Position numbers and translations under genes: made by a program
Shown here: positions 9,661-60,168 of the stretch, one piece after another
Position numbering within the stretch: position 1 is the first letter of the stretch
Layout of the letters: the number at the start of each line of letters is the position of its first letter
The notes under the pieces: model-generated
Seen by the model: only the letters and a program-made list of their open reading frames with translations
Databases searched by the model: none
Told to the model about the DNA's origin: nothing
NCBI GenBank assembly: GCA_027492675.1
Contig: JAPUEI010000097.1
Coordinates: 69,623 to 133,622, forward strand
DNA length: 64,000 bases
From: Propionibacteriaceae bacterium
GTDB taxonomy: Bacteria > Actinomycetota > Actinomycetes > Propionibacteriales > Propionibacteriaceae
Direction of reading: 5' to 3'

Positions 9661-9670
9661 GATCGCCCGG

Positions 9671-12312: not shown

Positions 12313-12665
12313 GGCAGTAGGAGCCCGAGTACGAGCAGGAGTCCAGCAGCGGTGACGGTTGCCGCGAGTAGCGGAAGGATGCGGGCAGGGGGGAGCGGGC
12401 TGCGTTCGCGGAGGGCGGTTTCGACGGTGGCCCATCCGAACCAGGCTTGGATCGGGCAGGCTGTGCCGCCGAGGACGAGGATGATGGCCGCAGCCAGACG
12501 CAGGCCCGGATGCAGGTTCACTGCAAGGGCTTCGAGGCCGACTCCGACGGAGATGAGCGCCAGGCCGGTGCTTACCCAGGCCAGGAACGTACGTTCGTTG
12601 GCCAGGGAGAAGCGGGCGTCGGGTTCGCTGCCGCGGGTGTAGACCCGACCAGGGAACCTGGTCAT
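12309..12665 (-). CDS. DUF202 family small membrane protein (first copy)
   Basis: A 118-residue polytopic protein. The N-terminus carries the family motif (ARFSLANERTFLAWVSTGLA, residues 16-35), followed by three membrane helices. The ATG at 12,665 overlaps the maturase stop in an ATGA. It differs from the following DUF202 protein but has the same fold pattern; tandem DUF202 pairs are common. Their link with a sulfatase maturase is unusual, and the sequence offers no biochemical clue. Confidence 0.8.
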   Translation of the reverse strand: MTRFPGRVYTRGSEPDARFSLANERTFLAWVSTGLALISVGVGLEALAVNLHPGLRLAAAIILVLGGTACPIQAWFGWATVETALRERSPLPPARILPLLAATVTAAGLLLVLGLLLP

Positions 12666-13918
12666 GTGGGTGGGGTCCTGTTCATGATGTTGGAGGCGGG
12701 TTGGCCGCGGCGGATCAGGTGGGCCATGGTTTCGATGGCGGGCCAGGCGTGGGTGAAGAACTGGTAGTAGCCGGCGCAGAGGTAGTTGAGTCCGGGTTCG
12801 TCGTCGCTGGTTGTGGTGAAGCGATCCTTCGGGCATCCGCCGTTGCAGGCCCACCTGACGGGGCATTCGAGGCATTGGCGGGGCAGGGTGGTGCGCTTGT
12901 CGCGTCCGAACTGGCGTTGCTGGGGTAGCGCCAGGAGGTCGGCGAACGCGTCGGTGGTGATGCTGCCGAGGCGGTAGTCGGGTTCGACGTAGTGGTCGCA
13001 GGAGTAGACGTCGCCGTTGTGTTCCATGGCGATCGCGCGGCCGCATTCGGGGGCGTGGACGCACAGGCTGTACTGGCCGAACAGGGCGCCCAGGGTGACA
13101 TCGAAGTGCTGGACGAACACGTCGCCGACGTCATGGGATAGCCACTCGTCGAAGACCGCCGTGAGGAAGGCGCCCCACTGCTGGGGAGTGACCGTGCGGG
13201 AGGTGACCCCGGTCCCGTTCTGGGTGTAGAGGACGTGGTCGCCGCGCTCGTCGCGGTAGCCGCGTTCGGCGTCGTTCTCGTGTCCGGTCTCGACCCGTTC
13301 CACGATCGGGATGAACTGCACGAAGGTCGCGCCCAGGTCGTCGCGGAAGTGCCGGTACACCTCGAGCGGGTGGTCGGCGTTGGCGGCGTTGACGGTGCAC
13401 AGGATGTTGGTGTCCACCCCGTGACGGCGCAGCACGTCCCAGCCGCGGCGGACCTGCTCGTACGTGCCACGGCCGGCCTTGTTCACTCGGTAGGAGTCGT
13501 GGAGCGCTGCCGGCCCGTCGATGCTCAGCCCGACCAGGAACTTGTGCTCGGCCAGGAACTCGCCCCACTCGTCATCCAGCAGGGTGCCGTTGGTCTGGAT
13601 CGCGTGCTGCACCTGTTGACGCGGTCGGCGATACAGCTCACTGAGTCGGACTGCCTCGCGGAAGAACGCCAACCCCCGGAGCGTCGGCTCGCCTCCCTGC
13701 CAACCGATGGTGACCTCCCCGTCGGGTTGGGCATCCAGGTACGACCGTACGAACCGATCGAGGGTGTCTGCGGTCATCCGCTGGTCGTCGTGGCCCCACA
13801 GCACTTCCTTGGATAAGAAGAAGCAGTACGAGCAGTCGAGGTTGCACGCCGCACCAGTCGGCTTCGTGATCAGCGAGAACGGCAGTCGCGAGGGCCGTGC
13901 CGTAGGGGTCTCAGACAT
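12662..13918 (-). CDS. Radical-SAM sulfatase maturase (anSME-like)
   Basis: A 418-residue radical S-adenosylmethionine/SPASM enzyme that converts the active-site Cys or Ser of sulfatases to formylglycine in the cytosol. The [4Fe-4S] motif CNLDCSYC is at residues 25-32 (Cys25, Cys29, Cys32), followed by the GWQGGEPTLRG SAM-binding loop near 75-85. The C-terminal SPASM region has the cysteine pattern CVHAPECG, YSCDHY, QCLECPVRWACNGGCPKDR and a final LCAGYY. A GGAG ribosome-binding site lies before the ATG. The three sulfatases in the island carry Cys at the modification site and lack signal peptides, so they are natural substrates. The gene is 162 bp downstream of the sulfatase gene at 14,081-15,595 and on the same strand. 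Confidence 0.92.
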   Translation of the reverse strand: MSETPTARPSRLPFSLITKPTGAACNLDCSYCFFLSKEVLWGHDDQRMTADTLDRFVRSYLDAQPDGEVTIGWQGGEPTLRGLAFFREAVRLSELYRRPRQQVQHAIQTNGTLLDDEWGEFLAEHKFLVGLSIDGPAALHDSYRVNKAGRGTYEQVRRGWDVLRRHGVDTNILCTVNAANADHPLEVYRHFRDDLGATFVQFIPIVERVETGHENDAERGYRDERGDHVLYTQNGTGVTSRTVTPQQWGAFLTAVFDEWLSHDVGDVFVQHFDVTLGALFGQYSLCVHAPECGRAIAMEHNGDVYSCDHYVEPDYRLGSITTDAFADLLALPQQRQFGRDKRTTLPRQCLECPVRWACNGGCPKDRFTTTSDDEPGLNYLCAGYYQFFTHAWPAIETMAHLIRRGQPASNIMNRTPPT

Positions 13919-14080: not shown

Positions 14081-15595
14081 TCAGCTCGTCGCGGCGATGT
14101 TGGCGACGTAGTTCTTGATCCGGGCGAAGACTTCCTCGTCGTACGGACCCCACTCGGGATGCGGGGTGCCCGAGCCGCGGTAGGGCTCGTCTCGGTAGTG
14201 GGACTGGATGTCGGCGAGCTTCGCTTCCAGGTCGGTCCGCACGGCGGCATATGCCGGGTCATCGGCGACGTTCGTGAGCTCTTGAGGATCTGCGCGCCGG
14301 TCGTACAGCTCCCACTCGGGGTCGTAGGTCAGCTCCGAGGCGCCGGGGACGCCGAGCCCGGCGCCGTAGTAGTAGATGAGCTTGTACTGATCGGTGACGA
14401 TGCCGTAGTGGCCCGGGGCATGGTGGATGGGGTCGTCGTGCTCCCAGTAGCGGTAGTAGGCCGCGTCGGGCCAGTCGTCGACCGTCTCGCCGCGCAGCAG
14501 CGTGCGGAAGGAACGCCCCTGGTTGGCGGGCAGGACCTCGTTCACGTCGAGGCCGCAGATGTCGAGGAAGGTAGCGGCGAAGTCGACGTTGGTGATGATC
14601 GCCTCGCAGGTACTCCCGGGCTGGATCTCGGCGGGCCAGCGCATGAGCATGGGCATCTGCAGCGACTGGTCGAACATGAGCCGCTTGTCGAACCATCCGT
14701 GGTCGCCGAGGAAGAAGCCCTGGTCCGACGTGTAGACGACCAGGGTGTTCTCGGCCAGTCCGACGGCGTCGAGGTGGTCCAGCAGCCGTCCGATGTTGTC
14801 GTCGATGGACTGGACGGTCTGGAGGTAGTCACGCATGTAGATCTGGTACTTCCAGTGCATCCGTGCCGACCGGTTCTCTGGTCCCCGTAGCTCCTGCGGC
14901 ACGGGCTGCTTGAGGTCGTCGGCCCCCATGTCGTCGGCGATCGTCATGTGGACGCCTTGGATGGCCCGGCTCCGGCTGGCGTGGTCGTCGAAGAAGGTCT
15001 CCGGCTCCGGGATGGTGCCGTCGTTGTACAGGTGCTTGTGCTTCTCGTCGGGGATCCAGGGGCGGTGCGGAGCCTTGTGGTGGACCATCATGCAGAACGG
15101 CCGATCGGGGTCGCGCTGGTCGATGAAGTCCAGCGCCAGGTCGGTGACGATGTCGGTCGCGTAGCCGTCGACGACGTGTTCGCCCTGCGCGTCGATCATC
15201 TTGGGGTTGATGTAGTCACCTTGACCGGGGAAGATCCGCCAGGCGTCGAAGTTCCGGGGCACAGCGTTCCCGTGCTCGCCCAGGTGCCACTTCCCGAACA
15301 TCGCGGTCTGGTAGTCGGTGTGCTCCTTGAGGGCGTCGATGAACGTGGGGACGCGGTAGTCGATCTCGGTCCAGATGGAGCTGACGCCGTTGATGTGGCT
15401 GTACGTGCCGGTCAGGATCGTCGCTCGGGAGGGACTGCACACCGAGTTGGTGCAGTACACAGCGTCCAGGCGTATGCCTTCCTTGGCGATCCGGTCCATG
15501 TACGGGGTGTGGTTGACCCGGCTGCCGTACGCGGAGATGGCGTGGGCCGCGTGGTCGTCAGACATGATGAAGATCAGATTGGGCTTGGTCGTCAT
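14081..15595 (-). CDS. Cys-type sulfatase (mucin-desulfating/GlcNAc-6-sulfatase-like)
   Basis: A 504-residue type I sulfatase of the alkaline phosphatase superfamily. The metal-binding start is IFIMSDDHAAHA (residues 8-19). The formylglycine signature CSPSRATILTG begins at Cys53. Further family motifs are GKWHLGEHG, HKAPHRPW and YTSDQGFFLGDHGWFDKR. The sequence style resembles the COG3119 group that contains GlcNAc-6-O-sulfatases; the exact substrate cannot be told. No signal peptide is present, so it acts in the cytosol on imported material. It is the last gene of the leftward catabolic operon, 61 bp after the CHR transporter. It ends with a short Thr/Ser tail. Confidence 0.9.
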   Translation of the reverse strand: MTTKPNLIFIMSDDHAAHAISAYGSRVNHTPYMDRIAKEGIRLDAVYCTNSVCSPSRATILTGTYSHINGVSSIWTEIDYRVPTFIDALKEHTDYQTAMFGKWHLGEHGNAVPRNFDAWRIFPGQGDYINPKMIDAQGEHVVDGYATDIVTDLALDFIDQRDPDRPFCMMVHHKAPHRPWIPDEKHKHLYNDGTIPEPETFFDDHASRSRAIQGVHMTIADDMGADDLKQPVPQELRGPENRSARMHWKYQIYMRDYLQTVQSIDDNIGRLLDHLDAVGLAENTLVVYTSDQGFFLGDHGWFDKRLMFDQSLQMPMLMRWPAEIQPGSTCEAIITNVDFAATFLDICGLDVNEVLPANQGRSFRTLLRGETVDDWPDAAYYRYWEHDDPIHHAPGHYGIVTDQYKLIYYYGAGLGVPGASELTYDPEWELYDRRADPQELTNVADDPAYAAVRTDLEAKLADIQSHYRDEPYRGSGTPHPEWGPYDEEVFARIKNYVANIAATS

Positions 15596-15656
15596 GGCAG
15601 TGCCTTTCTGGAGAGTCGCCGGCCGTGTGTGGCAGGGAGCTTCGGTTTCATTCGGG

Positions 15657-17018
15657 TCACAGCCCGAGGATGAGTAGTGAGGCCGCGGCGCAGCCGAACA
15701 GCACGACCATGTCGGGGACCAGTCGGCGAAGGTGGATCACGCTCAACGTGGCGATGGCCACCACGCTGAGCCACAGAAGCGGTGTAACTGGGATGCCGGC
15801 GCTCTCGCCGACGGCGGCGGAGACCTCGAGCATGCTGGCCGAGACCTGGACCAGAAGGCCGCAGATCACCGGCAGCATGTACGTGCCGATGTCGATCATC
15901 AGCGGATGGTGCCGCAACGTGTCGTAGACCCCCAGCAACGGCAGCGCGACCGCTGAGCAGGTGCCGACGGTGATCAGCATCGAGGCTACGCCACACACCC
16001 ACGACGTCCAGCCCGAGCCGGCGAACAGGTACCCGACTCCGGCGCCGACCTTGACCAGGATCGGCCCTGGGAGCGCGTTCGCGATCGGAACCAGCTGGGT
16101 GAAGAAGTCCTCGGTGCCCACCAGCCCGGAGCGGACGAAGAACCCGTCCGCGACCCCGATGTAGGCCTCGCCGCCGCCGAACGAGGTGAGGGTGGACAGG
16201 CTCAACAACCCGCCCAGCGACACCCCGGACCAGCCACGCACCAGTCCCAACAGGAGCACCCCGAGCAGCCCTAGCCCGACGAATGCGAACGCGCCCCACA
16301 GGCTGCGGCGTAGCGCTGCGTAGTCGAGTGCCGGTCCGGGATCCGCCGACCGCCGACGGCGCCCGGTGACCACCGAGTAGACCGCGATCCCGGCCAACGC
16401 GATCAGGATCACCTGGACCGCGCTCAGGTGCGGCAACTTGTGTTCCGACCGGATCCCGACCAGCCGCAGCGCGACCCGCACGATCGGGCCTGACCCGTTG
16501 AGCGCCGCGCTGGCCACCGTGATCGCCGCGAACACCACCAGCTTCACGCCTCGGACGTGGCTGAGCACCTTGCAGACGTAGCCGACCAGCAGCACCACGA
16601 TGAAGCACGTGATCCCGACCGAGGCGTTCGTGATCAGGCCCACCGCAGTAGGGCCGATCGCGTGCGACGCGGCCAGGATCCCCAACGTCCCCACCACGCC
16701 CGGGACCGCCACCGTCACTGCTGCCGCAACCGCCAGCCCGGGCCCCGAGATGGTCTGCCCCGCCTGTGCGCCCAGCTTTACCGGCAACGCCCCCGGGGTG
16801 ATGTTCGCGACCACCGTCTGCCGAAGGTATGTCTGCTCGTCGAGAAGCGATCGCTTGGTCACGATCTCCTTCTCCACGACCGGGATCAGCGCGCTACCTC
16901 CACCGAAGCCGATCAGACCTGCCGTCAACATCCCGGCCAACAGCCCCAAGGACCGACGGCCGGCTGTGTCGGGTCGTCGTTCAGTGTCTCCGGGGGCGGT
17001 CGTCGTTGCGGGTGTCAT
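15657..17018 (-). CDS. CHR-family (chromate/sulfate-type) anion transporter
   Basis: A 453-residue membrane protein with two homologous halves. The first half carries GFGGGSALIPVVEKEIV and an NITPGALPVKLG motif. The second repeats it as SFGGGEAYIGVADGFFV and NALPGPILVKVG. This is the full-length two-domain CHR architecture with about 11-12 membrane helices. Members export chromate, and sulfate is the chemical analogue. No chromate-resistance partner (ChrB) is present. Lying between sugar enzymes and a sulfatase, the protein may instead remove sulfate released in the cytosol; that is inference. It starts 4 bp after the aldolase stop. Confidence 0.82.
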   Translation of the reverse strand: MTPATTTAPGDTERRPDTAGRRSLGLLAGMLTAGLIGFGGGSALIPVVEKEIVTKRSLLDEQTYLRQTVVANITPGALPVKLGAQAGQTISGPGLAVAAAVTVAVPGVVGTLGILAASHAIGPTAVGLITNASVGITCFIVVLLVGYVCKVLSHVRGVKLVVFAAITVASAALNGSGPIVRVALRLVGIRSEHKLPHLSAVQVILIALAGIAVYSVVTGRRRRSADPGPALDYAALRRSLWGAFAFVGLGLLGVLLLGLVRGWSGVSLGGLLSLSTLTSFGGGEAYIGVADGFFVRSGLVGTEDFFTQLVPIANALPGPILVKVGAGVGYLFAGSGWTSWVCGVASMLITVGTCSAVALPLLGVYDTLRHHPLMIDIGTYMLPVICGLLVQVSASMLEVSAAVGESAGIPVTPLLWLSVVAIATLSVIHLRRLVPDMVVLFGCAAASLLILGL

Positions 17019-17022
17019 CGCG

Positions 17023-17907
17023 TCACTCGATGGGGGCGCCGTCGGTGTGCATGAACCCGCAGCGCCCCATGGAGCCGGTCATGGGGAGGTAGTTGGTGAC
17101 GAAGTCGTAGACGGCTCTCTCGGCCGCGGCCATCAGGTCGATGTAGTCGCGAGTCGGTTCCGTTCCGGCGAGGGTGAGGATGGCGGTCTTCGCCGCGTCG
17201 AAGGCGTCCGTCGCGACGTTGATCTTGTTGATCCCGAGGGCCACGGCGCGACGGATGTTCGGCTCGCCGGCCCCGGAGCCACCGTGCAGCACCAGGGGCA
17301 TGTCGAGTGTCGTCTTGAGCAGCTCGAGCCGGTCGAAATCGAGCTCGGGCACCTTGTGGGACGGGTAGCTGCCGTGGGCGGTGCCGATGGCGACCGCAAG
17401 GGCGTCGACACCGGTCCGCTGGACGAAGTCGAGGGCCTGTGCCGGGTCGGTGAGGTAGTCGGCGCGACCCTCGTCGCCAGCGGCGGCGAAGCCGACGTGT
17501 CCGAGCTCTGCCTCGACGCCGATGTCGAACGGTGCCGCATAGTCCACGACGTCCCTGGTCCAGCCGACGTTGTCGCTGTAGTCGGCTTTCGACGTGTCCA
17601 GCATCACGGAGTTGAACCCGGCCTGGATGCACTGGACCACGATCTTGACCGAGGGGGAATGGTCGAGGTTCAGCGAGACCGGGATCGTGGCCTCCTCCGC
17701 GAGGGCGCGGACCACGGGCACCATGACGCCGATCTTCGCGTGCCGGCGCATCTGGCCCACGCCGATGTTGATGATCAGCGGGGCGCGGGCTGCTTCGGCG
17801 GCATGAACAGCGCCCCGCACCATCTCGATGTTGGCGCAGTTGAGGGCGAGCACCGCATAGCCGTCGCGGTGCGCGTGGCGCAGGGAGTGCTTCATCGACA
17901 CGTACAT
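17023..17907 (-). CDS. Class II ketose-1,6-bisphosphate aldolase (GatY/KbaY/FbaA type)
   Basis: A 294-residue zinc-dependent aldolase that splits a ketose 1,6-bisphosphate into dihydroxyacetone phosphate and a 3-carbon aldehyde. Visible motifs are LNLDHSPS (zinc His and catalytic Asp), EAELGHVG, the zinc His of GTAHGSY, the zinc His of LHGGSG, and KINVATD for phosphate binding. Whether it prefers fructose, tagatose or another bisphosphate is undetermined. It sits between the isomerase (12 bp) and the CHR transporter (4 bp) in the leftward operon, next to an isomerase and phosphofructokinase that would supply its substrate. Confidence 0.9.
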   Translation of the reverse strand: MYVSMKHSLRHAHRDGYAVLALNCANIEMVRGAVHAAEAARAPLIINIGVGQMRRHAKIGVMVPVVRALAEEATIPVSLNLDHSPSVKIVVQCIQAGFNSVMLDTSKADYSDNVGWTRDVVDYAAPFDIGVEAELGHVGFAAAGDEGRADYLTDPAQALDFVQRTGVDALAVAIGTAHGSYPSHKVPELDFDRLELLKTTLDMPLVLHGGSGAGEPNIRRAVALGINKINVATDAFDAAKTAILTLAGTEPTRDYIDLMAAAERAVYDFVTNYLPMTGSMGRCGFMHTDGAPIE

Positions 17908-17919
17908 GGGATCTCTTTC

Positions 17920-19185
17920 TCAGAACGGGCGGCCAAGGGCCTCGAACATCAGGGCTTTGTACGCCTCGACGCCGGGCTGGTCGAAGGGGTAGACCTCGAT
18001 CAGGCGACCGGACAGGGCGACGCTGTACTCGAAGAAGTAGAAGAGCTGCCCGAAGGATCGCGCGTCCAGAGCCGGGGCGGTGAGCACAGAGGTAGGGACC
18101 CCGCCTTTGGCGTGTGCGGCGACGGTCGCGTTGAACGCCGTGCGGTTGATCCAGTTGAGGTCGGCTCCCTCGACGTACGAGAAGCCGTCGCTGAGACCGT
18201 CGGCCGGGAGGTGCAGCTGGGCCGGGGGGGCGGCCAGGTCAAGGAAGGTCTCGGCGAGGATGCGCTGCCCCTCCTGCACGTACTGGCCCACAGAGTGGAG
18301 CTGCTCGGAGTAGCTGAGGGACATCGGGAACAGCCCGCGGCCGCGCTTGCCCTCGCTCTCGGCGAAGAGCTGGACCCACCAGGCGCCCAGGCGGGCCAGG
18401 GCGGGCTCGAAGAATGCGAGCGCTTCGATTTGGCGCCCGTCCCGCAGCCATGCGAGGCGGGTGGCTGCGTAGTCGACGACGGCACGGCCCCCGCGCGCGA
18501 TCTCGTTCTGCTGTTCCTTGCCGCCTTGTACGAGAGCGGTGATGTCGACTCCCGACACTGCCATCGGGAACAGGCCGACCGCTGTCATGGCGGTGAAGCG
18601 GCCCCCCACGTTGGCGGGGAACTCGAGGAACGTCATGTGCTGGTCGTCGGCGAGCTTCTCGAGGCTGCTTCCGGCGCTGCCGATCACGGTGAAGTGGCTG
18701 GCGTAGTCCGTGCCGTACTCGCGGCGCGCGAACTCGCGGCACAGCCGGAAGACGATCCCGGGCTCGAGGGTCTCGAAGTTCTTCGCGATCACCGTGAAGT
18801 GCACCTGCTTGCCGGCCAGATCCCCCAGGAGCCGTACGTGGTAGTCGGCTGACAGGTTGGTGCCGGCCCAGCGCACCTCAGGGCCGTGGAGCTGAGGCTC
18901 GAGCGCCTCGATGACGGCTCGCGCGGCCTGGTTCGACCCGCCGACGCCGACCACGACGTGGACGTCGGTGTTCTGGCGAACGGTGGCGGCCAGGGCGAGC
19001 AGGAGGGGCAGCTGGCCCGGGCCGGCCCACTCGTCGGTGTTCATCCAGCCGAGGTCGGGTCTCCCGGGCTCGGCGATCACCTGCAGGTAGTCCTTGTTGA
19101 CGTCGGCCGCGACTTCGCGGGCGGCGGCGAGCGCGTCGGAGTAGACGCCGTTGCCCGAGGGCGGGGCTTGGAACTCGATGGTCAT
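17920..19185 (-). CDS. Glucose-6-phosphate isomerase family protein
   Basis: A 421-residue SIS-fold isomerase. Recognised features are VVVGVGGSNQAARAVIEAL (first sugar-phosphate loop), TVIGSAGSSLEKLA and EFPANVGGRFTAMTAVGLFP. The catalytic-region block ESEGKRGRGLFPMSLSYSEQ is followed by HSVGQYVQEG, and QPGVEAYK lies near the end. It is somewhat shorter than the 440-550 residues of housekeeping enzymes and resembles Firmicutes-type PGI. It presumably converts an aldose 6-phosphate to a ketose 6-phosphate for the phosphofructokinase encoded upstream. The 10-12 bp spacing to its neighbours shows a single operon. A modified or epimeric hexose phosphate as substrate cannot be excluded. Confidence 0.88.
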   Translation of the reverse strand: MTIEFQAPPSGNGVYSDALAAAREVAADVNKDYLQVIAEPGRPDLGWMNTDEWAGPGQLPLLLALAATVRQNTDVHVVVGVGGSNQAARAVIEALEPQLHGPEVRWAGTNLSADYHVRLLGDLAGKQVHFTVIAKNFETLEPGIVFRLCREFARREYGTDYASHFTVIGSAGSSLEKLADDQHMTFLEFPANVGGRFTAMTAVGLFPMAVSGVDITALVQGGKEQQNEIARGGRAVVDYAATRLAWLRDGRQIEALAFFEPALARLGAWWVQLFAESEGKRGRGLFPMSLSYSEQLHSVGQYVQEGQRILAETFLDLAAPPAQLHLPADGLSDGFSYVEGADLNWINRTAFNATVAAHAKGGVPTSVLTAPALDARSFGQLFYFFEYSVALSGRLIEVYPFDQPGVEAYKALMFEALGRPF

Positions 19186-19195
19186 CTGCGTGTCC

Positions 19196-20638
19196 TCAGT
19201 GGAGTCCGACGGTGTCGTCGGAGGTGAGACAGAGGTGGACGGCCGACCGCTTGAACGCCAGCGGCATGGCCAGGATGCGCGCGTTGGGCCCTGTGATGCG
19301 CAGCGCGTCGGCCAAGCACTCCTCGACCGTGGCGCGCGACCTCATGCCCATGCCGCGAGCCAGACCAGGGACCTTCGCGCCGGCGACGTAGATCGCGGTG
19401 GTGTGGCGGTGGGCGATCTCGGCGGAGCTGATCATGGAGAACGCGTGGAACGGGTGGAAGCCGAAGTTGTCGCGGTAGTTGCGGATGTAGTCCTCGTTCT
19501 CGGCGAACGAGACGCCGAGTTCGGCGACGTCGGGGAGGGTGTGCCCGGACGCCGAGTACCTGGCGTACAGCTCGGTCTGTCCGGTGAAGAGCCCCTCGTT
19601 GAACTCGCCCAGTTCGGCGGCCGCGATCACGATGCAGTTGTCCTTCAGCACGCGCTTGTGCCGCACGATCTGGGCCGAGACCGCCTGCAGGACCATGATC
19701 GGGTTGGTCCCCATGCCGTCGCCATATTGGAACGACTTGGGCAGCCCGAAGATGAGGATGTCGTACGGTTCCGTGGCCCACTTCACATAGGTACGAGGAT
19801 CGGCGACCGCCCACGAGGGCGGCTCGATCTCCGAGGCGATGCCGGCGAACACGGCCATCTGTCGAGCGCGGGAGTCGAGCACAGCGTCGATGCAGAAGAA
19901 GGGTCGGCCCATGGCCTCCTCCATGCGCTGCCCGATCTCGTCGAACTGGTGCCGCATCCGCGAGTGGGTGCTGACCGGGACGAAGTCCGGCCGGTGCATG
20001 ACCTTGGGCACATGGTGCGAGGCAATCGACTTCCAGTGGCTGATGCCGGTGGCCGAGTGCTTGTACCCGCCGGAGTAGCCCCCATAGGGGTTGCCCATGG
20101 TGTGGCCGATGAGGATGGCCAGGTCGCTCTCGAAGACGTATGAGTTGATGAGGACCGGATCGCCGTGGCGCGTGGTGCCGAGGTCGACGAGGTGGTCGTA
20201 GTCCTCGCTGTCGTGGTTCACGATCCGGCCGACCGGGGCGAACCGGTCGTACAGCTCGTCGCCGAGGATCGACCGGATCTGGTCGGGGGTGTTCTTGGCG
20301 TGGAGGCCGTTCGAGCAGATCAACATGATGTTCTCATCGGGAACCCCGGCGGCCGCCAGGTCATCGAGGGCGAGCTTCATGGCGATCCGGCGGTGGGATG
20401 TCGGTGTCTCGCCACCCTTGACGCGGTCGGGGAAGACGATGGTGACCCTCGAGCCCGGCCCCACGCTGTCGCGGATGGTCGGCATGCCGAGTGGGTGGTC
20501 CATGGCTTCGCGGGTCGCGGCCCATGGATCGGACAGGAAGGGCGGATCAGGAACCGTCTCGCCGGCGACGAAGACGTCGGTGCTGTCGGGGAGCTCGGCC
20601 GAGACCGTGCCGTCGCCGTACTCGAGCTCAACCAGCAT
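19196..20638 (-). CDS. LarA-family (DUF2088) nickel-dependent 2-hydroxyacid racemase/epimerase homologue
   Basis: A 480-residue protein of the lactate racemase family, whose members use a nickel-pincer nucleotide to racemise or epimerise 2-hydroxyacids. Conserved features: IVFPDRVKGG (equivalent of the D-x-T-R loop), CSNGLHAKNTP (His of the cofactor site), GYSGGYKHSATGI with Lys193 at the position of the cofactor-bound lysine, and a later ASHHVPKVMH histidine block. The PH dipeptide that usually precedes the SGG-K loop is replaced here (GNPYGGY), and the loop Arg is Lys, so the substrate is probably not lactate. The cofactor genes larB, larC and larE are not in the window. It overlaps the triose-phosphate isomerase gene by 11 bp. 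The start at 20,638 fits family length. Confidence 0.85.
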   Translation of the reverse strand: MLVELEYGDGTVSAELPDSTDVFVAGETVPDPPFLSDPWAATREAMDHPLGMPTIRDSVGPGSRVTIVFPDRVKGGETPTSHRRIAMKLALDDLAAAGVPDENIMLICSNGLHAKNTPDQIRSILGDELYDRFAPVGRIVNHDSEDYDHLVDLGTTRHGDPVLINSYVFESDLAILIGHTMGNPYGGYSGGYKHSATGISHWKSIASHHVPKVMHRPDFVPVSTHSRMRHQFDEIGQRMEEAMGRPFFCIDAVLDSRARQMAVFAGIASEIEPPSWAVADPRTYVKWATEPYDILIFGLPKSFQYGDGMGTNPIMVLQAVSAQIVRHKRVLKDNCIVIAAAELGEFNEGLFTGQTELYARYSASGHTLPDVAELGVSFAENEDYIRNYRDNFGFHPFHAFSMISSAEIAHRHTTAIYVAGAKVPGLARGMGMRSRATVEECLADALRITGPNARILAMPLAFKRSAVHLCLTSDDTVGLH

Positions 20639-21485
20639 GGGTCGCCTCCAGGTGCGAGAAGTAAGTGTCAACGATCGTGAGGTACTCGTCGGGGTAGAAG
20701 CCGATCTCCCCGGTGAATCGGGTGAGCGCGATGAGCCCGCCGTCGAGTTCGGTGATCTCGGCGATCGCGCCGGCGTTCTCAGCCTTGAGGCCGCCGCCGT
20801 ACACCAAGGGAACATCGGGGACTAGGGACTTCACCAGGACGGCGACCTCCCTGATCTGTGCGGGCTCTGGCGGCGTCTTTCCCGGTCCGATCGCCCACAG
20901 GGGTTCGTACGCGAGGATCAGCCGGGTCCTGTCCAGGCCCGGGAGGCTTGCCTCGAGCTGGGAAGTCAGGGCCTGACGCCAGCGGTCCCGGGCGTCAGCG
21001 CTCTCGCCGATGCAGACCACGACCCGCAGGCCGGCGAGCTGGGCGGCCTTGGCCCGGGCGTTGATCTCCCGGTCCGCGGCGTCGCCGTTGGCCCCTGCGG
21101 TGACCCCGGCACGCTCGAGGAGCGCCTTCAACGTGGCTCGTTCCTCGGAATGGCCCACGAGTGCCGCGTCGACCCCGGCGGCTGCCATCGCGTGGGCCGT
21201 CCGCTGGGTCGTGAACGCACCGAAGTTGCCACCCACACTCGTATCGGCGTCGTGCACACCCTGGCACCCGATGGCGGGCCGACCGTTGTCGCGCGCTGAG
21301 AGGGCCGGGATCAGGTGGAGCTCGGGGAAGAAGAAGATGATGTCGTGCGTGGCGTATCTCTCGAGGGCCGGGCGAACTCCGTCGAGGATCGTGGCGGCCC
21401 AGTCCGCCGCCGGGGCGATCCGATTGACGCCGCCCAGCTCGGGCGGGATGTCGAACCGCTTCAGGTTGACCAGGATGTGCTTCAC
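20628..21485 (-). CDS. Triose-phosphate isomerase family protein (divergent)
   Basis: A 285-residue TIM-barrel enzyme, longer than the usual 250. Catalytic residues are all in place: Asn and Lys in VNLKRF (7-11), His and Glu in VGHSEER, the general base Glu in AYEPLWAIGPGKTP, and the phosphate loop YGGGL. The block GGNFGAFTTQRTAHAMAAAGVD is characteristic of a divergent subgroup, which I recall mainly from Firmicutes. Reaction by homology: dihydroxyacetone phosphate to glyceraldehyde 3-phosphate. A housekeeping copy is expected elsewhere, so a dedicated copy here suggests a private pathway. Start is 13 bp after the phosphofructokinase stop; the gene overlaps the LarA-like gene. Confidence 0.87.
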   Translation of the reverse strand: MKHILVNLKRFDIPPELGGVNRIAPAADWAATILDGVRPALERYATHDIIFFFPELHLIPALSARDNGRPAIGCQGVHDADTSVGGNFGAFTTQRTAHAMAAAGVDAALVGHSEERATLKALLERAGVTAGANGDAADREINARAKAAQLAGLRVVVCIGESADARDRWRQALTSQLEASLPGLDRTRLILAYEPLWAIGPGKTPPEPAQIREVAVLVKSLVPDVPLVYGGGLKAENAGAIAEITELDGGLIALTRFTGEIGFYPDEYLTIVDTYFSHLEATHAG

Positions 21486-21498
21486 GTCGAGCTCCGAA

Positions 21499-22653
21499 TC
21501 AGAGGGTGGCGAAAGAGGGAAGGGGGCCGACCAGCGGCTCGAGCCAGTCGACGTAGTCGTCGGTGACGTCGGCCGAGTCGGGAGAGATGTACTCGGCAGG
21601 GACGGTCTTCTCCGATAACGCCAGGTGGGCGAGATCCACGGGCTGGACAGTCGTCGCGTACGACGCCCCGGGCTCGCGCTGGATCGACATCATCACGCCG
21701 TCGCGGCCGTCGACGATGGCCATGACCGCTGCTCGGCCGACCAGCTCCGCCTCCTGACGGTCGATCGTCGACTGCCACGCCATGGACGCTCGCCCGGCGA
21801 TACCGGGCTTCTCGCTGCGCGCCTTGATGCCGAGCTCGGTGACAATGAGCTGCGAAAGGTGGGCGCCCACCTCACCGAAGTAGACGGACCTTCCTGTCGA
21901 CATCAGGGGCGGGACCACCGGCTGACCCGAGGAGAGGGCGAGGCCCTCACTGACGACGACGACCGCGTATCCCTGGTCATCCCAGAGGTTCTGGACCCGG
22001 TCCAGGAACGCGGCTGGGTCGAAGGCCCGCTCGGGTAGGTAGACCAGATCGGGCCCGCCACCGTACCGGCGCGCGAGGGCCGAGGCGGCGGTGAGCCAGC
22101 CGGCGTTGCGGCCCATGGCTTCGATGATGCACACGTGGATTGGAAGGGACCGGACATCGGCGGTGATCTCCGCCGTGGTCGCCGCGAGGTAGCGAGCCGC
22201 GCTACCGAAACCGGGCGCGTGGTCGGTCGCCGGGAGGTCGTTGTCGATCGTCTTGGGAACCCCGACCACCGAGATGGGCCCCTGATCGGATCGCCTGATC
22301 GCCTCACGGAACCGCGAGCAGGTGTCCATCGTGCCGTTGCCGCCCCCGAAGAGCACCCCGCTGATCGCGTGCCGGTGGCAGACCTCGACGAGGCGGTCGA
22401 GGTCGTCGTCGAGCAGAGGGGTACGCGACGTGCCGATGACGGTTCCTGGTGTGTGCGGCAGTGCCTGCCGGACGCTGTCTGCCAGGTCCTGGAGCTCGAT
22501 GAAGTCCTCCGTCAAGGCGCCGGCTGTGCCTCCGTGAGCCCCGAGCACGTGCTCGTACCGTCCCTGCGCCTCAGCGAGGATGCCGTACAGCGTGGCGTTG
22601 AGCACGGCCGTCGGTGCCCCGCCGTTGACGACCAGCAGGGAATTTCTTCTCAC
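21499..22653 (-). CDS. 6-phosphofructokinase family protein
   Basis: A 384-residue PFKA-superfamily enzyme that phosphorylates fructose 6-phosphate at C1. Motifs: an initial VVNGGAPTAVLN loop, FGGGNGTMDTCSRF, GVPKTIDNDLPATDHAPGFG with the catalytic TIDND, and IEAMGRNAGWLTAAS. The residue after GGN is Gly while the residue before TIDND is Lys. By known specificity rules (G104/K124) this points to ATP rather than pyrophosphate, but the usual metal-binding Asp of GGDG is Asn here. The GTG at 22,653 shares a GTGA overlap with the GH3 stop and gives the right length. In-frame codons further upstream lie in the GH3 gene and were dropped. Confidence 0.87.
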   Translation of the reverse strand: MRRNSLLVVNGGAPTAVLNATLYGILAEAQGRYEHVLGAHGGTAGALTEDFIELQDLADSVRQALPHTPGTVIGTSRTPLLDDDLDRLVEVCHRHAISGVLFGGGNGTMDTCSRFREAIRRSDQGPISVVGVPKTIDNDLPATDHAPGFGSAARYLAATTAEITADVRSLPIHVCIIEAMGRNAGWLTAASALARRYGGGPDLVYLPERAFDPAAFLDRVQNLWDDQGYAVVVVSEGLALSSGQPVVPPLMSTGRSVYFGEVGAHLSQLIVTELGIKARSEKPGIAGRASMAWQSTIDRQEAELVGRAAVMAIVDGRDGVMMSIQREPGASYATTVQPVDLAHLALSEKTVPAEYISPDSADVTDDYVDWLEPLVGPLPSFATL

Positions 22654-25130
22654 GGCGCGAGCTCCACGTCGCACGGGCTCGTGAACGCTCGCACGGTCAC
22701 CATGACGGTGTCGCCGGTGAGCGTGAGGGGCAACGTCGCGTGGATCGCGTCGGAAGCCGTGCCCACGAGGATCCGAGATGGGCCCGGGGTGACAACAAGG
22801 TCCATGTGCTCGTCGAGGTAGGAGACCACCGAGGTCGGCACGCTGAACGTCAGCCGGGCGCTGGTGCCCGCCTCCAGCTCGATGCGCTGGAACGCCACCA
22901 GCTGCTTCACCGGCCGCGTGACATGGGCGTTGTCGCATCGGTAGTAGACCTGCACGACCTCGCTGCCTGCCCGATCCGACGTGTTCGTCACCGTCGCCGT
23001 GACCGTGATCGTGCCGTCCGTGGGGACGGTGTCCGACGCCAGCGTGCAGTCGGTGAGGGTGAAGGTGCTGTACGAGAGGCCGTGGCCGAACGCGTACAGA
23101 GGACTGGCCGCCTCATCGACGTAGCCACCACGGAAGACTTGGTTGCGTACGGGGTTGTCGCCGAGGTCGTCGTACCCGGAGCCCATCTTGTGGTTGTAGA
23201 AGATCGGCACCTGCCCCACGCTGCGGGGGACGGTGACGGGCAGCTTGCCGCCAGGGTTCAGCCGTCCGAGAAGGGTGTCTGCGACTGCCTGGCCCCCGTG
23301 GAGTCCTGGCAGCCAGGCATGCAGGATCGCGCGAACGGCGGGGCTGGCGACCTGACGCGCAAGAGCCAGGGGGCGGGATCCGAACTCGACCACGACGATC
23401 GGTGTCCCGACCGCCTCGAGCGCGGTGAACAGCGCTTCCTGCGATCCCGGCAGGTCGAGGTGGGCACGGTCCTTGCCCTCACCGTCCGTGGTGTCTCCCC
23501 AGCCGCAGGTGCCTCCGACCGCCAGCAGGACCACGTCAGCTTCCTGCGCGGTGGCCACGGCGTGTGCGATCCCTGACAGGTCGGTCGAGTTGACGTCGCA
23601 ACCGCGTGAGTAGCTCACGCCCACGCCGGACGCCTCCAGAGCGCCCTTGAGCGTGACGACCGCGTACCGCGACCGAAGAAGCGCCTCGACGTCGACTCCA
23701 GCGGCGAACTCGGGGGAGCTGGCGAAGAACGCAGTGAACCCCGCGAAGGGATCGCGCGACGTGGGCTTCTCGCTGTCGTCCGACTCCTCGAGCTTGGACT
23801 TGGCCGCCTCGTCAGCCATGCCGTGGAAGCTTGCCTGGATAGCGTTGATCAGCATGTCGATGTACGACGGGAGGGTGTAGCCGCTCATCATCGCGCTCAC
23901 CGAGTCGGCGTGCGGACCGATGAGCGCCACCTTCGTGGGGGCTGCCAACGGCAGGAAGCCGTCGGTGTTCGCAAGGAGTGTGATCGACTCCTCGGAGACC
24001 CTGCGGGCGACCGTGAGATGTTCTTGGTTCCCGTACTGGCTGGGGTCGAACTCCGTGTAGGGGTTCTCGAACAAGCCGGCGTCGAACTTCGTCTTCAGCA
24101 CGGCCTTCACTGCCTCGTCGATCAGATCGACGGACAGCTCCCCGGACGCCACGTAGGAGGCCAGCTGGCGGAAGGCGTTGCCGACGGGCATCTCGGTCTG
24201 CAAGCCGGCAAGCAGAGCCAACAGCCCAGCCTCCTCGTACGTACGACTGACATGGTTCGAGTCGAAGATCTTCCAGATCGCCCCGCCGTCCGAGACCGCC
24301 AGACCGTCGAAGCCCAGCCGGTCTCGCAGCAGCTCGCGAAGGATCGCAGGGTTGGCGCCGACCGGTAGTCCGTCGATCTCTGAGTAGGACGCCATGACGG
24401 CCGCAAGCCCGGCATCCTTCATGGCGGCGTCGAACGGGGTCGCGTACACCTCGTACAGGTCGCGGGCGGTGACGCTGGTCGCAGCGGTGTTCAGCCCGGC
24501 CTGGGTGACGGAGTAGCCGAGGAAGTGCTTGGCGGTCGCGAGCACGCCATCTGTCCTGCTGGCCTGCAGGTTAGCCACGTACTGCTTTCCATGTTGGCTG
24601 ATAACGTACGGGTCCTCGCCGAACGTCTCGTACTGACGGCCCCAACGGGGATCGCGCGCCACGTCGAGAACGGGGGAGAGCGCCTGGCGGATTCCCGTCG
24701 GTACGGTCTCGTCGCGAATGACGGCGGCGACCTCGCCCGTGAGTTCCGGGCGGAACGTAGCGGCAGCGTTGAGCATCGACGGGAAGATCGTGGCGCCCGC
24801 GACCGGGACGCCGGACAGGTTCTCCGCCTGGAACATGACGGGGATCCCGAGCCGAGTACGTTCGACGAAGTAGCGCTGCACGTCGTTGCTGATGGCGGCG
24901 ATGCGCGCCGCGTCGGCGATGCCGAGGATCGAGTACTGCGTGAAGCGACCCAGACCGTGCGGGAACGACACCGGGAGGCTCTCGAGGACGACCCCTCGAC
25001 CGTCGGCGAACGAGCTCGGCAGGTCGCTGCAGAGCTGGGCCAGCTTCTCATCGAGAGTCATCCGACCAAGAAGGTCATCGACCTTTGCATCGGTTCCGAG
25101 TCGCACATCTCGGTAGTCGGATCCCTGCAT
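22650..25130 (-). CDS. Glycoside hydrolase family 3 beta-glycosidase
   Basis: An 826-residue three-domain GH3 enzyme. The N-terminal barrel shows SPVLDVARDPRWGR, YETFGEDPY and KHFLGY. The nucleophile is Asp281 in GLAVSDGGAI. A five-stranded alpha/beta sandwich follows (about 390-640, with ALIGPHAD and GTCGWGDTTDGEGKDR), and a fibronectin-III-like domain ends the protein. Typical activities are beta-glucosidase or beta-xylosidase, and the sequence does not settle it. There is no signal peptide, so it works on imported oligosaccharides. GGAGGACGC precedes the ATG at 25,130. First gene of the leftward operon, with its own promoter in the divergent region to the right. Confidence 0.92.
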   Translation of the reverse strand: MQGSDYRDVRLGTDAKVDDLLGRMTLDEKLAQLCSDLPSSFADGRGVVLESLPVSFPHGLGRFTQYSILGIADAARIAAISNDVQRYFVERTRLGIPVMFQAENLSGVPVAGATIFPSMLNAAATFRPELTGEVAAVIRDETVPTGIRQALSPVLDVARDPRWGRQYETFGEDPYVISQHGKQYVANLQASRTDGVLATAKHFLGYSVTQAGLNTAATSVTARDLYEVYATPFDAAMKDAGLAAVMASYSEIDGLPVGANPAILRELLRDRLGFDGLAVSDGGAIWKIFDSNHVSRTYEEAGLLALLAGLQTEMPVGNAFRQLASYVASGELSVDLIDEAVKAVLKTKFDAGLFENPYTEFDPSQYGNQEHLTVARRVSEESITLLANTDGFLPLAAPTKVALIGPHADSVSAMMSGYTLPSYIDMLINAIQASFHGMADEAAKSKLEESDDSEKPTSRDPFAGFTAFFASSPEFAAGVDVEALLRSRYAVVTLKGALEASGVGVSYSRGCDVNSTDLSGIAHAVATAQEADVVLLAVGGTCGWGDTTDGEGKDRAHLDLPGSQEALFTALEAVGTPIVVVEFGSRPLALARQVASPAVRAILHAWLPGLHGGQAVADTLLGRLNPGGKLPVTVPRSVGQVPIFYNHKMGSGYDDLGDNPVRNQVFRGGYVDEAASPLYAFGHGLSYSTFTLTDCTLASDTVPTDGTITVTATVTNTSDRAGSEVVQVYYRCDNAHVTRPVKQLVAFQRIELEAGTSARLTFSVPTSVVSYLDEHMDLVVTPGPSRILVGTASDAIHATLPLTLTGDTVMVTVRAFTSPCDVELAP

Positions 25131-25203: not shown

Positions 25204-25405
25204 GTCTTCGACCTCCATCGCGGACGGCAGTTGTCTCGCGCGGTCGGTTGGCCGCCCCACGTCACCGGATTCCGCGTGGTCAACGGAAGGGAAGGAGTGG
25301 ACAAAATAGCAACCATAATTGACGAAAGCGTGGAAGTGGCTCGGGCGTGCTTGCGGACGAACCTCTTCTGGTTGGGTCACGATTCGGCCACGATCGACGT
25401 CGCTC

Positions 25406-25434
25406 TTGACGGATGACATAAGAGACATTAGTTT
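25406..25434 (+). promoter_or_regulatory. Predicted promoter of the rightward sulfatase/transporter set
   Basis: TTGACG at 25,406-25,411 is followed after 17 bp by TAGTTT at 25,429-25,434, about 77 bp before the sulfatase ATG. The bases around the -10 (CATTAGTTTC) differ by one from the opposing promoter's CATTACTTTC, suggesting shared control. Confidence 0.4.
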
Positions 25435-25510
25435 CTCCAGCGTCACAAGAAACCCATGCGGGACAGGCCACGACGGCCCGGCCCGACCAGTGGTCCAGGT
25501 AGGAGCAAGG

Positions 25511-27157
25511 ATGCTTCCGGAGGCGGCGCACAGGCCCAACGTGCTGTGGTTGACCACCCATGACATCAACCCGCACCTTGGCTGCTACACAGGTGTCTGG
25601 CCCGGCGCAGAGCAGGCCAGGACCCCCCATCTCGATCGGCTCGCGGCCCAGGGCATCAGGTTCGACCAGGCCATTGCGACGGCGCCGGTCTGTGCTCCGT
25701 CCCGCTCGTCCGTGCTGACCGGCTGCTTCCCCCCGTCGATCGGGACCATGCACATGCGCACTCGCGCGGTTCCGCCCCCGGAGGTCCAGTTGCTGCCGAC
25801 GTACTTCCGTGCGGCCGGCTACTGGACGGCGAACAGCGCGTTCACCGACTTCCAGATGGACATCCCGTCACCCGTGTACGACGAGTTCGGCGACGCCTCC
25901 CACTGGCGCCATAGGCCCGATCCGGACCAACCCTTCTTCCTTGCGGTCCACAGCATGACCACCCATGAGTCGAGCATCTACGTCGACGACGACCGCTACG
26001 CCGAGCTCACCGCTGACGTGACCGACGACCAGCGTCAGGACGAGGCGTCCGTCGCGATCCCTCCGTACCACCCGGACACCCCCGTGTACCGCCGGGCGTG
26101 GGCACGCTACCTCGAGCTGGTCAGCCAGGTCGACCACTGGGTCGGACGCTGGCTCGCCGCCCTCGAGGACGACGGACTGGAGCGCGACACCATCGTGGTC
26201 TTCTGGAGCGACCACGGGCTCGGCATGCCACGGGCCAAGCGTTGGGCGAGCGAGGCCGGGCTCCGCGAGCCGCTCATCATGAGGTGGCCGGGCCGCCTGG
26301 CTCCGGGGTCGGTGTCGCACGTGGTGAGTCTGATGGATCTCGCCCCGACCATGTTGGCGATGTGCGGGCTGCCGGTCCCTGACCACATGCAGGGCCAGGC
26401 ACTGGTCACGGACAGCCTGGTGCCGGAGGCTGACCTCAACCCCTACGCCTTCAGCGGCCGAGATCGTATGGGCGAGGCGGACGACCGCAGCCGCTCGGTG
26501 CGCGACGACCGGTTCCGCTACACGCGTCACTTCCATCCCGACCGCACGTCGATGGGGCACTGCGAGTATCCCGACCACCTGGCCACGTGGGCCGAGCTCC
26601 GGCGGCTGTTCGGCGCCGAGGCACAACGGGACCTCTCCAGGGGACTGCCCGGCTCACTGCTCACTCCGCTGCAGCGCAGCGTCGTCGCCGCCACGAAACC
26701 GGCCGAGGAGCTGTACGACGTCGTGGCGGACCCACACGAGGAGACCAACCTCGCGTCACTGCCTGCCTTCGCCGATGACAAGGAGCGCCTCGCCGCAGCC
26801 CTTGACACCTGGCTGGCGACGGTTGGCGACCTGGGCGCGATTCCCGAGACAGAGCTTCTTGAGCAGTGGCGACCCGGTGGACACGCCCCGGTCGTCGACG
26901 ACCCGCGCAGCAGCCACGAGTCGGGGCTTGTGAGCCTGTCCTGCGAAACCCCAGGTGCCCTCATCGGGTGGACGGACCGGCCGGAGGGCGACGAGCCGGT
27001 CGCCGCCCTGCCGCCGTTCATCGGCTACGAGGACGACCACGCCTCGTGGCGCCTCTACACGGGGCCGTTCGCACCGCCACCGAGCTCTCCCATCCGCGTC
27101 AAGGCATGGCGGATCGGGTGGACACCAAGTCAGACCCTCACCATCCAGTCTCCCTGA
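25511..27157 (+). CDS. Cys-type sulfatase with C-terminal beta-sandwich, sulfamidase-like
   Basis: A 548-residue cytosolic sulfatase. VLWLTTHDINPHLGCYTG (residues 11-28) carries the metal ligands. The formylglycine motif CAPSRSSVLTG starts at Cys61. VFWSDHGLGMPRAKRWASEA supplies the second metal-ligand block. This style recalls N-sulfoglucosamine sulfohydrolase (S1_8-like) enzymes, but the substrate is not proven. About 70 C-terminal residues (GALIGWTDRPEG ... WRLYTGPF ... RVKAWRIGWTPSQ) look like the chitobiase/hexosaminidase C-terminal sandwich, which is unusual on a sulfatase. The ATG at 25,511 has AGGAGCAAGG directly before it; 64 open codons upstream have no similarity and contain the promoter. 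Confidence 0.9.
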   Translation: MLPEAAHRPNVLWLTTHDINPHLGCYTGVWPGAEQARTPHLDRLAAQGIRFDQAIATAPVCAPSRSSVLTGCFPPSIGTMHMRTRAVPPPEVQLLPTYFRAAGYWTANSAFTDFQMDIPSPVYDEFGDASHWRHRPDPDQPFFLAVHSMTTHESSIYVDDDRYAELTADVTDDQRQDEASVAIPPYHPDTPVYRRAWARYLELVSQVDHWVGRWLAALEDDGLERDTIVVFWSDHGLGMPRAKRWASEAGLREPLIMRWPGRLAPGSVSHVVSLMDLAPTMLAMCGLPVPDHMQGQALVTDSLVPEADLNPYAFSGRDRMGEADDRSRSVRDDRFRYTRHFHPDRTSMGHCEYPDHLATWAELRRLFGAEAQRDLSRGLPGSLLTPLQRSVVAATKPAEELYDVVADPHEETNLASLPAFADDKERLAAALDTWLATVGDLGAIPETELLEQWRPGGHAPVVDDPRSSHESGLVSLSCETPGALIGWTDRPEGDEPVAALPPFIGYEDDHASWRLYTGPFAPPPSSPIRVKAWRIGWTPSQTLTIQSP

Positions 27158-27250
27158 CCGGCCGGTGCTCCCGGACAACAACTCCACTCATTGACACAGC
27201 GGGACACACCTCCGGCACCGGGGCCGGGTGGATCCAGGGAAGGAAAGACA

Positions 27251-28859: not shown

Positions 28860-29801
28860 GTGCTCTCATTCCTCCTCCGCCGCATCGGCGCAGGGATCGT
28901 GCTCGTCGTCGTCGTGCCCACGCTGACGTTCCTGCTTGCCTATGCAGGCACGAAGAACGTGGCGCTCGCCATGCTTGGCGAGAATGCGACGATCGAGCAG
29001 GTCGCCGCCAAGAACCACGAACTAGGCCTCGACCAACCGGTCCTGGCGCAGTACCTCCACTGGGCCACGAACGCCGTCCAGGGAGATTTCGGCGTCTCGT
29101 GGTTCACCCAGCAGCCGGTGACCGAGGCCGTCGCCGATCGTCTGCCGATCACGCTGTCCATGGTGCTGCTCGCTATCACCTGCACCGCACTCATCAGTGT
29201 GGCGCTGGGGGTCTCCGCTGCGGTACGGGGCGGTGCCATGGACCGTGTCATCCAGGTGCTGAGCGTCATCGGCTTCTCCCTTCCGAACTTCTGGGTGGCC
29301 CTGATGATGGTGTTGGCCTTCGCGATCGCCATCCCGCTTCTGCCGGCCACTGGATACGTCCCCTTCGCCCAGGACCCAGGACTCTGGGCACTGTCACTGG
29401 TGCTGCCCGTGTTCTCCCTCGTCATCGGTGGTATCGCCAACGCCTCCCAGCAGGTGCGAGGCGCCGTCATCGACGTGCTCCGGCAAGATTTCGTACGGAC
29501 ACTGCGCTCGCGCGGCCTGAGCAAGAGGTCGGTGTTGCTGCGGCACGCGCTGCGCAACGCCGCATCGCCGGCGCTCATGGTGCTGTCCCTGCAGTTCATC
29601 GCCCTTCTGGGCGGCGCCGTCATCATCGAGAAGGTGTTCGCCATCCCTGGCCTCGGAACACTGACCGTCGATGGCGCCGTCCGGGGCGACATTCCAGTCC
29701 TGATGGGCGTCGTGGTCAACCTCGTGATCATGGTCGTCATCGTCAACCTCATCATCGACGTCGTCAGCGGATGGGTGAACCCGAAGGTGCGTGTGCAATG
29801 A
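28860..29801 (+). CDS. ABC transporter permease (DppB-like)
   Basis: A 313-residue inner-membrane subunit with about six transmembrane helices. It starts with the typical LLRRIGAGIVLVVVVPTLTF helix and has a large periplasmic loop (residues 35-95). The family EAA-type coupling motif appears at DVLRQDFVRTLRSRGLSKRS. The GTG at 28,860 is used because it puts the family N-terminus in place; an ATG at 28,853 is in another frame. The stop overlaps the start of the next gene (ATGA). Confidence 0.93.
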   Translation: MLSFLLRRIGAGIVLVVVVPTLTFLLAYAGTKNVALAMLGENATIEQVAAKNHELGLDQPVLAQYLHWATNAVQGDFGVSWFTQQPVTEAVADRLPITLSMVLLAITCTALISVALGVSAAVRGGAMDRVIQVLSVIGFSLPNFWVALMMVLAFAIAIPLLPATGYVPFAQDPGLWALSLVLPVFSLVIGGIANASQQVRGAVIDVLRQDFVRTLRSRGLSKRSVLLRHALRNAASPALMVLSLQFIALLGGAVIIEKVFAIPGLGTLTVDGAVRGDIPVLMGVVVNLVIMVVIVNLIIDVVSGWVNPKVRVQ

Positions 29802-59993: not shown

Positions 59994-60168
59994 GGGTCCA
60001 TTCGTTACGTGTCGCAGTGCCAAATGCCCTACTCCCATCGATGAAGTGCGCCGTATGGTGCTCGAAAGGAGACGATAGCTCCGTCGAATCATTTCGGAGG
60101 CGATTACGTTGACTCAGCATCACGGCCCCGCTTCCACACACCCAATCCGTACCCAGGAGAGAATCCCG

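Follow-up and report, generated by a model that had tools for sequence, protein, structure and literature searches.

The locus reported here combines features of two described systems. In the sulfo-Embden-Meyerhof-Parnas 2 (sulfo-EMP2) pathway of sulfoquinovose degradation (SqvD, SqiK, SqiA), a PF00365 kinase and a PF01116 class II aldolase act on a ketose that is anionic at C6 (PMC9594981). The other system is the LarA_Sp/LarA_Bw subfamily of nickel-pincer enzymes, in which His174 is replaced by Asn and for which structures appeared in 2025 (PDB 9q2u, 9q3k, 9q3j; PMC12611868). LarA_Sp, from Streptococcus plurextorum, is loaded with nickel-pincer nucleotide (NPN), carries a ligand of 316.5 Da and has no lactate racemase activity; glycolytic gene neighbours of the subfamily were noted without a pathway (PMC12611868). 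Here we analyse an operon with homologues of both, found in 64,000 nucleotides of a Propionibacteriaceae genome (contig JAPUEI010000097.1, assembly GCA_027492675.1, positions 69,623 to 133,622), below called the window. Judging from sequence, this operon may encode a dedicated Embden-Meyerhof-type pathway for a hexose, or a hexosamine in relatives, whose C6 carries a group X other than phosphate, likely a sulfate ester or sulfonate. We give this reading slightly better than an even chance.

The operon consists of eight genes in one run on the minus strand, all of which look coding by codon-position G+C. It begins with a GH3 glycoside hydrolase that has an Fn3-like domain and no apparent signal peptide (22650..25130; Pfam, NCBIfam), followed by a sugar 1-kinase of the phosphofructokinase (PFK) family (21499..22653; PF00365, PRK14072 subfamily), a candidate hexulose-6-X 1-kinase. 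Then come a TIM-barrel paralogue of triose-phosphate isomerase (TIM; 20628..21485), a LarA homologue (19196..20638), a paralogue of glucose-6-phosphate isomerase (GPI; 17920..19185), a class II ketose-bisphosphate aldolase family protein whose nearest solved relative is YdjI (6ofu; 17023..17907), a CHR-family (chromate/oxyanion) transporter that is a candidate exporter (15657..17018), and a sulfatase-family protein (14081..15595). We corrected the PFK start to GTG 22653, giving a 4 bp overlap with the GH3 stop, and the LarA start to ATG 20638, giving an 11 bp overlap with the TIM-like gene. The other gaps are 13 bp (PFK-TIM), 10 (LarA-GPI), 12 (GPI-aldolase), 4 (aldolase-CHR) and 61 (CHR-sulfatase), so that after these corrections the compact eight-gene operon of the preliminary description stands, with no gap wider than 61 bp. 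Three of the names given there call for a qualifier: TIM, GPI and LarA score 80, 339 and 171 bits against curated equivalog cut-offs of 255, 443 and 740, well below in each case, and are therefore assigned to paralogous subfamilies.

Indications of an unusual substrate come from the phosphate-binding sites, whose canonical residues have known roles in GPI, TIM, PFK, NagA and NagB. In the GPI-like proteins of the window and of related loci, the phosphate loop SKSGTT/SKTFTT has become AK[N/D]F.T in 22 of 22 members (AKNFET in the window), with the catalytic Arg, Glu, His and Lys motifs kept. The Phe of this loop was dropped as evidence, since canonical GPIs have it too, including the genome's own (ASKTFTT). 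All 65 TIM-like proteins keep the catalytic Lys, His and Glu and the gripper loop WAIGPGK, and all 65 have the phosphate site replaced (Ser211 of loop 7, Gly232-Gly233 of loop 8); an added Arg256 is conserved in 62. Among 53 kinases, in E. coli numbering, Arg162 is changed to His in 50 and His249 to Ile, Leu or Val in all, and Arg243 is always kept. The family model suggested a pyrophosphate-dependent PFK, a candidate we rejected because the GGNG and K124 signature points to ATP instead. In most members where the motifs were found, the Arg of the NagA motif HREPG is His, and NagB has PVGPVG for PTGGTP. The housekeeping GPI and TIM of the window genome retain canonical phosphate sites. Because phosphate-site residues are swapped throughout these clades and catalytic residues are kept, we infer that C6 of the hexose, and C3 of the triose, bears something other than phosphate. 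The retained gripper loop and Arg256 argue for an anionic X. A pocket that is still partly basic would suit a monoanion, and the hydrophobic replacements make a 6-deoxy sugar possible as well.

Are these genes simply the glycolytic set of the cell? The window genome (G000; 3.27 Mb, 97.7% complete) has, outside the operon, four further PFK matches (two within one long frame), a full GPI (678 bits), a full TIM (306 bits) and two further class II aldolases. The operon genes are consequently paralogues, as the preliminary description had supposed in calling them second copies, and we rejected housekeeping glycolysis as their role. A genome devoid of other copies, which that description named as refuting its reading, is thus not what we see. 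With the same models the operon PFK, GPI and TIM score below the best other genomic copy, and the operon aldolase scores above it (277 versus 263 bits). Of 294 genomes in the order only one had the TIM-like gene, and of 395 in the class only one other had a close LarA relative; this rarity suggests that the operon genes were acquired horizontally. A close LarA homologue in genome G296 (48% identity) lies in an uninformative locus, where an ABC permease precedes it upstream and the contig stops downstream. The window genome has two more LarA-family genes, one (about 30% identical) adjoining the housekeeping GPI on contig C60 (63188-66055; L042) and one on contig C75. On contig C41 (4633-6639) two PFK domains lie in one open frame of 872 aa, possibly a fused double phosphofructokinase.

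The arrangement is not confined to this genome. About 85,000 species genomes were scanned with the LarA pair, which gave 197 confirmed relatives, and the best 80 (54-60% identical) were analysed as loci; the counts below cover the fetched flanks, often broken by contig ends. These loci belong mainly to Clostridia and Spirochaetes, with Bacilli, S. plurextorum, Desulfosporosinus, Acididesulfobacillus and others, and the carriers include distant gut, sediment and termite bacteria. Near LarA lie TIM-like genes in 73 loci, PFK in 53, aldolase in 48, GPI in 23 and GH3 in 7, and the window GH3 is about 48-49% identical to GH3 proteins in several of them. In a Treponema (L119) the order is LarA-aldolase-PFK-GPI-TIM-sulfatase. 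Because the TIM-LarA-PFK-aldolase set recurs in distant phyla, the grouping is not due to chance. Other recurrent neighbours are LacI, NagA-like, divergent NagB-like and phosphomannose isomerase (PMI)-like enzymes, aldose epimerases, SsuA-type ATP-binding cassette (ABC) transporters with a two-component system, and TauE proteins. GPI, NagA/NagB and the PMI-like enzyme seem to serve, singly or together, as entry steps that all lead to fructose-6-X. In six loci (L052, L053, L054, L056, L058, L059) a chemoreceptor-like protein (family c18) stands beside the module, in which a methyl-accepting chemotaxis signalling domain is followed by an NMT1/SsuA-type binding domain (Pfam on L059 only).

Sulfur recurs around the module. 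The window encodes three sulfatases without signal peptide by eye: that of the operon (motif CSPSR), a second on the plus strand, divergent from the operon (CAPSR; 25319..27157, true start probably near 25511), and a third, also on the plus strand (CMPAR; 32148..34283, true start probably near 32484). An anaerobic sulfatase-maturating radical SAM enzyme (12662..13918, minus strand; TIGR03942, 449 bits, cut-off 349) lies 162 bp 3' of the operon sulfatase. The latter is 40% identical to the sulfatase next to TIM in the Treponema locus, and the third window sulfatase shares 46-48% identity with sulfatases next to the module in L092 and L110; sulfatases occur near the module in at least L091, L092, L096, L110 and L119. 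An SsuA-type binding protein (144 bits, cut-off 163.5) was found in 34 of the 80 loci and a TauE-family protein in 12, both far above chance given assumed genome frequencies of 1-2%.

The window LarA matches LarA_Sp and LarA_Bw over its full length (E 1e-195), and the S. plurextorum gene is itself among the 80 loci (L060). The window protein has Asn (N183) at the His174 position, together with the other catalytic His, the Lys that binds NPN and the nickel-binding His (H113, K193, H209). Catalytic and cofactor residues are invariant across 76 aligned sequences with one exception: the window protein has Gln304 where the other 75 have the active-site His306, so that of the substrate-site set His306/Tyr307/His401 it retains Tyr305 and His398. 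We rejected a role as lactate or malate racemase because this subfamily has the Asn and its published assay was negative (PMC12611868), which also leaves unsupported the earlier placing of LarA on a 2-hydroxyacid branch, since the subfamily is without one of the two catalytic histidines. L093 and L112 have LarA but no TIM, and its neighbours there are a dehydrogenase like sulfolactaldehyde (SLA) reductase, TauE and an importer of the SsuA type, a setting that suggests a three-carbon substrate, C3-X, for LarA. In L093 (12072-14036) a PF01663 gene (type I phosphodiesterase, sulfatase superfamily) lies between LarA and a beta-hydroxyacid dehydrogenase.

How might these proteins work together? An importer would take up a small sulfated or sulfonated glycoside, which cytosolic GH3 and sulfatases would trim, with partial desulfation. 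The GPI-like enzyme, or in relatives NagA with the NagB-like enzyme or the PMI-like enzyme, would give a 6-X-ketose, the PFK-like kinase would phosphorylate its C1, and the aldolase would cleave the product to dihydroxyacetone phosphate (DHAP) and a C3-X aldehyde. This aldehyde and the ketone would be interconverted by the TIM-like enzyme, the LarA-like enzyme would catalyse a hydride transfer on the C3-X compound, and the sulfur oxyanion could leave through CHR, or TauE in relatives. The position of X at C6, its identity, the order of steps and the role of LarA are all inferred. That X is a sulfur oxyanion at all we regard as a little more probable than the contrary. Sulfate would fit the hexosamine branch and the sulfatases, and sulfonate would fit the analogies of the kinase and of SsuA/TauE; NagA and NagB suit sulfate better, since to our knowledge no natural 6-sulfonated N-acetylhexosamine exists. 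A redox-neutral route without sulfatase is also conceivable, in which the enediolate formed from glyceraldehyde-3-X by the TIM-like enzyme would lose the sulfur oxyanion, sulfate or sulfite, by elimination and become methylglyoxal, which the single-histidine LarA-like enzyme would turn into one lactate enantiomer through an internal C1-to-C2 hydride shift mediated by NPN; we think this quite improbable.

The dedicated route for a modified hexose, proposed in the preliminary description, is therefore well supported by the paralogues, the rebuilt phosphate pockets and the conservation across phyla. The link to a sulfated saccharide proposed with it is plausible in view of the Cys-motif sulfatases and the maturase in the window and of the transporters and sulfatases in related loci. 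The data do not call for an epimeric hexose; the changes point to a substituent at C6. In the open-access literature we found no described pathway for catabolism of 6-sulfated hexoses or for LarA with sulfonates, and the earlier statement that none is described holds to that extent; the glycolytic neighbourhood of this LarA subfamily had already been noted (PMC12611868).

Several observations weigh against a sulfur oxyanion as X or against the proposed pathway as a whole. The SsuA-type matches fall under their curated cut-off, TauE is present in only 12 of the 80 loci, and CHR occurs in only one other (L049). Should the sulfatases strip off all sulfate before the sugar is catabolized, X would be something other than sulfate, and sulfonate meets the difficulty that no natural 6-sulfonated N-acetylhexosamine is known to us. 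We found the module accompanied by neither a sulfoquinovosidase nor a true sulfoquinovose isomerase. Several pocket replacements are hydrophobic or acidic (N/D and sometimes E in GPI, Ile/Leu in PFK, Val/Pro in NagB), and X could thus be neutral. LarC and LarE, which synthesize the LarA cofactor, were not found in the window genome (97.7% complete), and both are missing in 11 of 34 module genomes, this one and three isolates among them. Such genomes retain the LarA cofactor residues in the sequences aligned, and cofactor salvage or another cofactor is possible. LarC is present in 23 of the 34 module genomes compared with 63 of 148 Clostridia (p ~0.01), only modestly above this baseline, and so gives weak support.

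If X were hydrogen, the same architecture would serve 6-deoxyhexoses and their 2-acetamido forms (quinovose, D-rhamnose, N-acetylquinovosamine): the aldolase would yield DHAP and D-lactaldehyde, the TIM-like enzyme hydroxyacetone, and the LarA-like enzyme would act on lactaldehyde, near its ancestral substrate. Such a C3 2-hydroxy aldehyde is chemically close to lactate, the glucose-, mannose- and N-acetylglucosamine (GlcNAc)-type entry enzymes match the known 6-deoxy series, and many pocket replacements are indeed hydrophobic (Ile/Leu in PFK, Val/Pro in NagB, Ala-Leu in TIM, Ala in GPI). However, the gripper loop (65/65), Arg256 (62/65) and R243 of PFK (53/53) suggest that an anion remains, the SsuA-type importer and TauE would have no obvious role, and among the recurring families we recognised neither lactaldehyde reductase nor propanediol genes; the 80 loci had one open reading frame resembling aldehyde dehydrogenase (ALDH). 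We consider a 6-deoxy sugar rather unlikely.

Saccharide loci often contain extra glycolytic paralogues, and with their intact catalytic residues the operon enzymes could also be redundant isoenzymes for glucose-, fructose- and triose-phosphates that persist for regulation or by hitch-hiking in a polysaccharide locus. This is very unlikely in our view, as phosphate-binding residues are replaced in five families, in clades spanning several phyla, and a redundant set would not explain why TIM so constantly accompanies an orphan LarA. Similarly doubtful is a zwitterionic or bulky group at C6 (phosphoethanolamine, phosphocholine, aminoethylphosphonate or a glycosyl residue), with the sulfatase-family genes coding for phospho- or phosphonate-diesterases. 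The PF00884/PF01663 superfamily does include enzymes that cleave phosphodiesters, a PF01663 gene stands beside LarA in L093, part of the GPI clade has acidic residues in its pocket, and the covalent 316.5 Da ligand of LarA_Sp exceeds a triose (PMC12611868). The SsuA-type and TauE genes nevertheless favour sulfur oxyanions, as do the motifs Cys-x-Pro-Ser-Arg and Cys-x-Pro-Ala-Arg of the window sulfatases with their adjacent maturase, although such sites also occur in phosphonate hydrolases.

Other genes beside the operon, all on the plus strand, are an SBP_bac_5 substrate-binding protein of a peptide/oligosaccharide-type ABC importer (27191..28783), an ABC permease (28860..29801) and a ROK-family sugar regulator, a candidate regulator of the locus (35036..36253). 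Elsewhere in the window, positions 5812-11456 encode a protein with adenylation and carrier domains and hexapeptide repeats, together with a peptidase M1 and a phosphopantetheinyl transferase, possibly a poly-amino-acid or non-ribosomal peptide synthetase-like cluster, and a GH120-type beta-xylosidase-like protein is encoded at 60109-61659.

The proposed pathway would give an orphan nickel-pincer subfamily of solved structure a place in conserved metabolism and a predicted substrate class, and would make the role of single-histidine LarA enzymes testable with a small substrate panel. Bifidobacterium bifidum releases free GlcNAc-6-sulfate but leaves it unused (PMC11186840). If X is sulfate, carriers of the module could be the missing consumers of such free 6-sulfo sugars, and a new branch of sulfur cycling would exist in bacteria of gut, sediment and acidic water. 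Under the sulfatase-free variant, gut Firmicutes would live on free GlcNAc-6-sulfate released from mucin.

NF052592 (LarAH14/15/16) is the best NCBIfam model for the window LarA, but at 171 against 740 bits the protein is not a member. Canonical GlcNAc catabolism shares its entry steps with many related loci, which have NagA (308 bits, cut-off 226) and a divergent NagB-like enzyme; the module versions differ in their replaced phosphate-contact positions, and the window operon uses GPI instead. For sulfo-EMP2 we compared clusters around sulfoquinovose-isomerase genes, of which only part carry an isomerase above the curated cut-off, and called kinases SqiK by position. The isomerase there is the FucI-fold SqvD, whereas the module has a GPI-, NagB- or PMI-like one; none of 34 module genomes, that of the window included, has an SqvD/SftI match over the cut-off, and distant homologues lie near some modules. 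Where sulfo-EMP2 has an SLA reductase or dehydrogenase, the module has the TIM-like and LarA-like enzymes; no such reductase or dehydrogenase was recognised in the window operon, and an ALDH-like motif was seen in 1 and a beta-hydroxyacid dehydrogenase in 3 of the 80 loci. In the tree the module kinases form their own clade, sister to the canonical enzymes 3k2q/3hno and outside SqiK. A plain sulfo-EMP2 pathway for sulfoquinovose was rejected on the absent SqvD-type isomerase and the separate kinase clade. The kinase pockets themselves are alike: all seven SqiK proteins have Gln, Asn or Thr at 162, Met, Leu or Val at 249, Arg at 243 and GGNG, so that loss of R162, a hydrophobic residue for H249, retained R243, GGNG and K124 are common to both, and in both a PF01116 aldolase stands beside the kinase. 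As far as sequence can tell, the module is thus not a member of sulfo-EMP2, but it resembles that pathway in its middle part.

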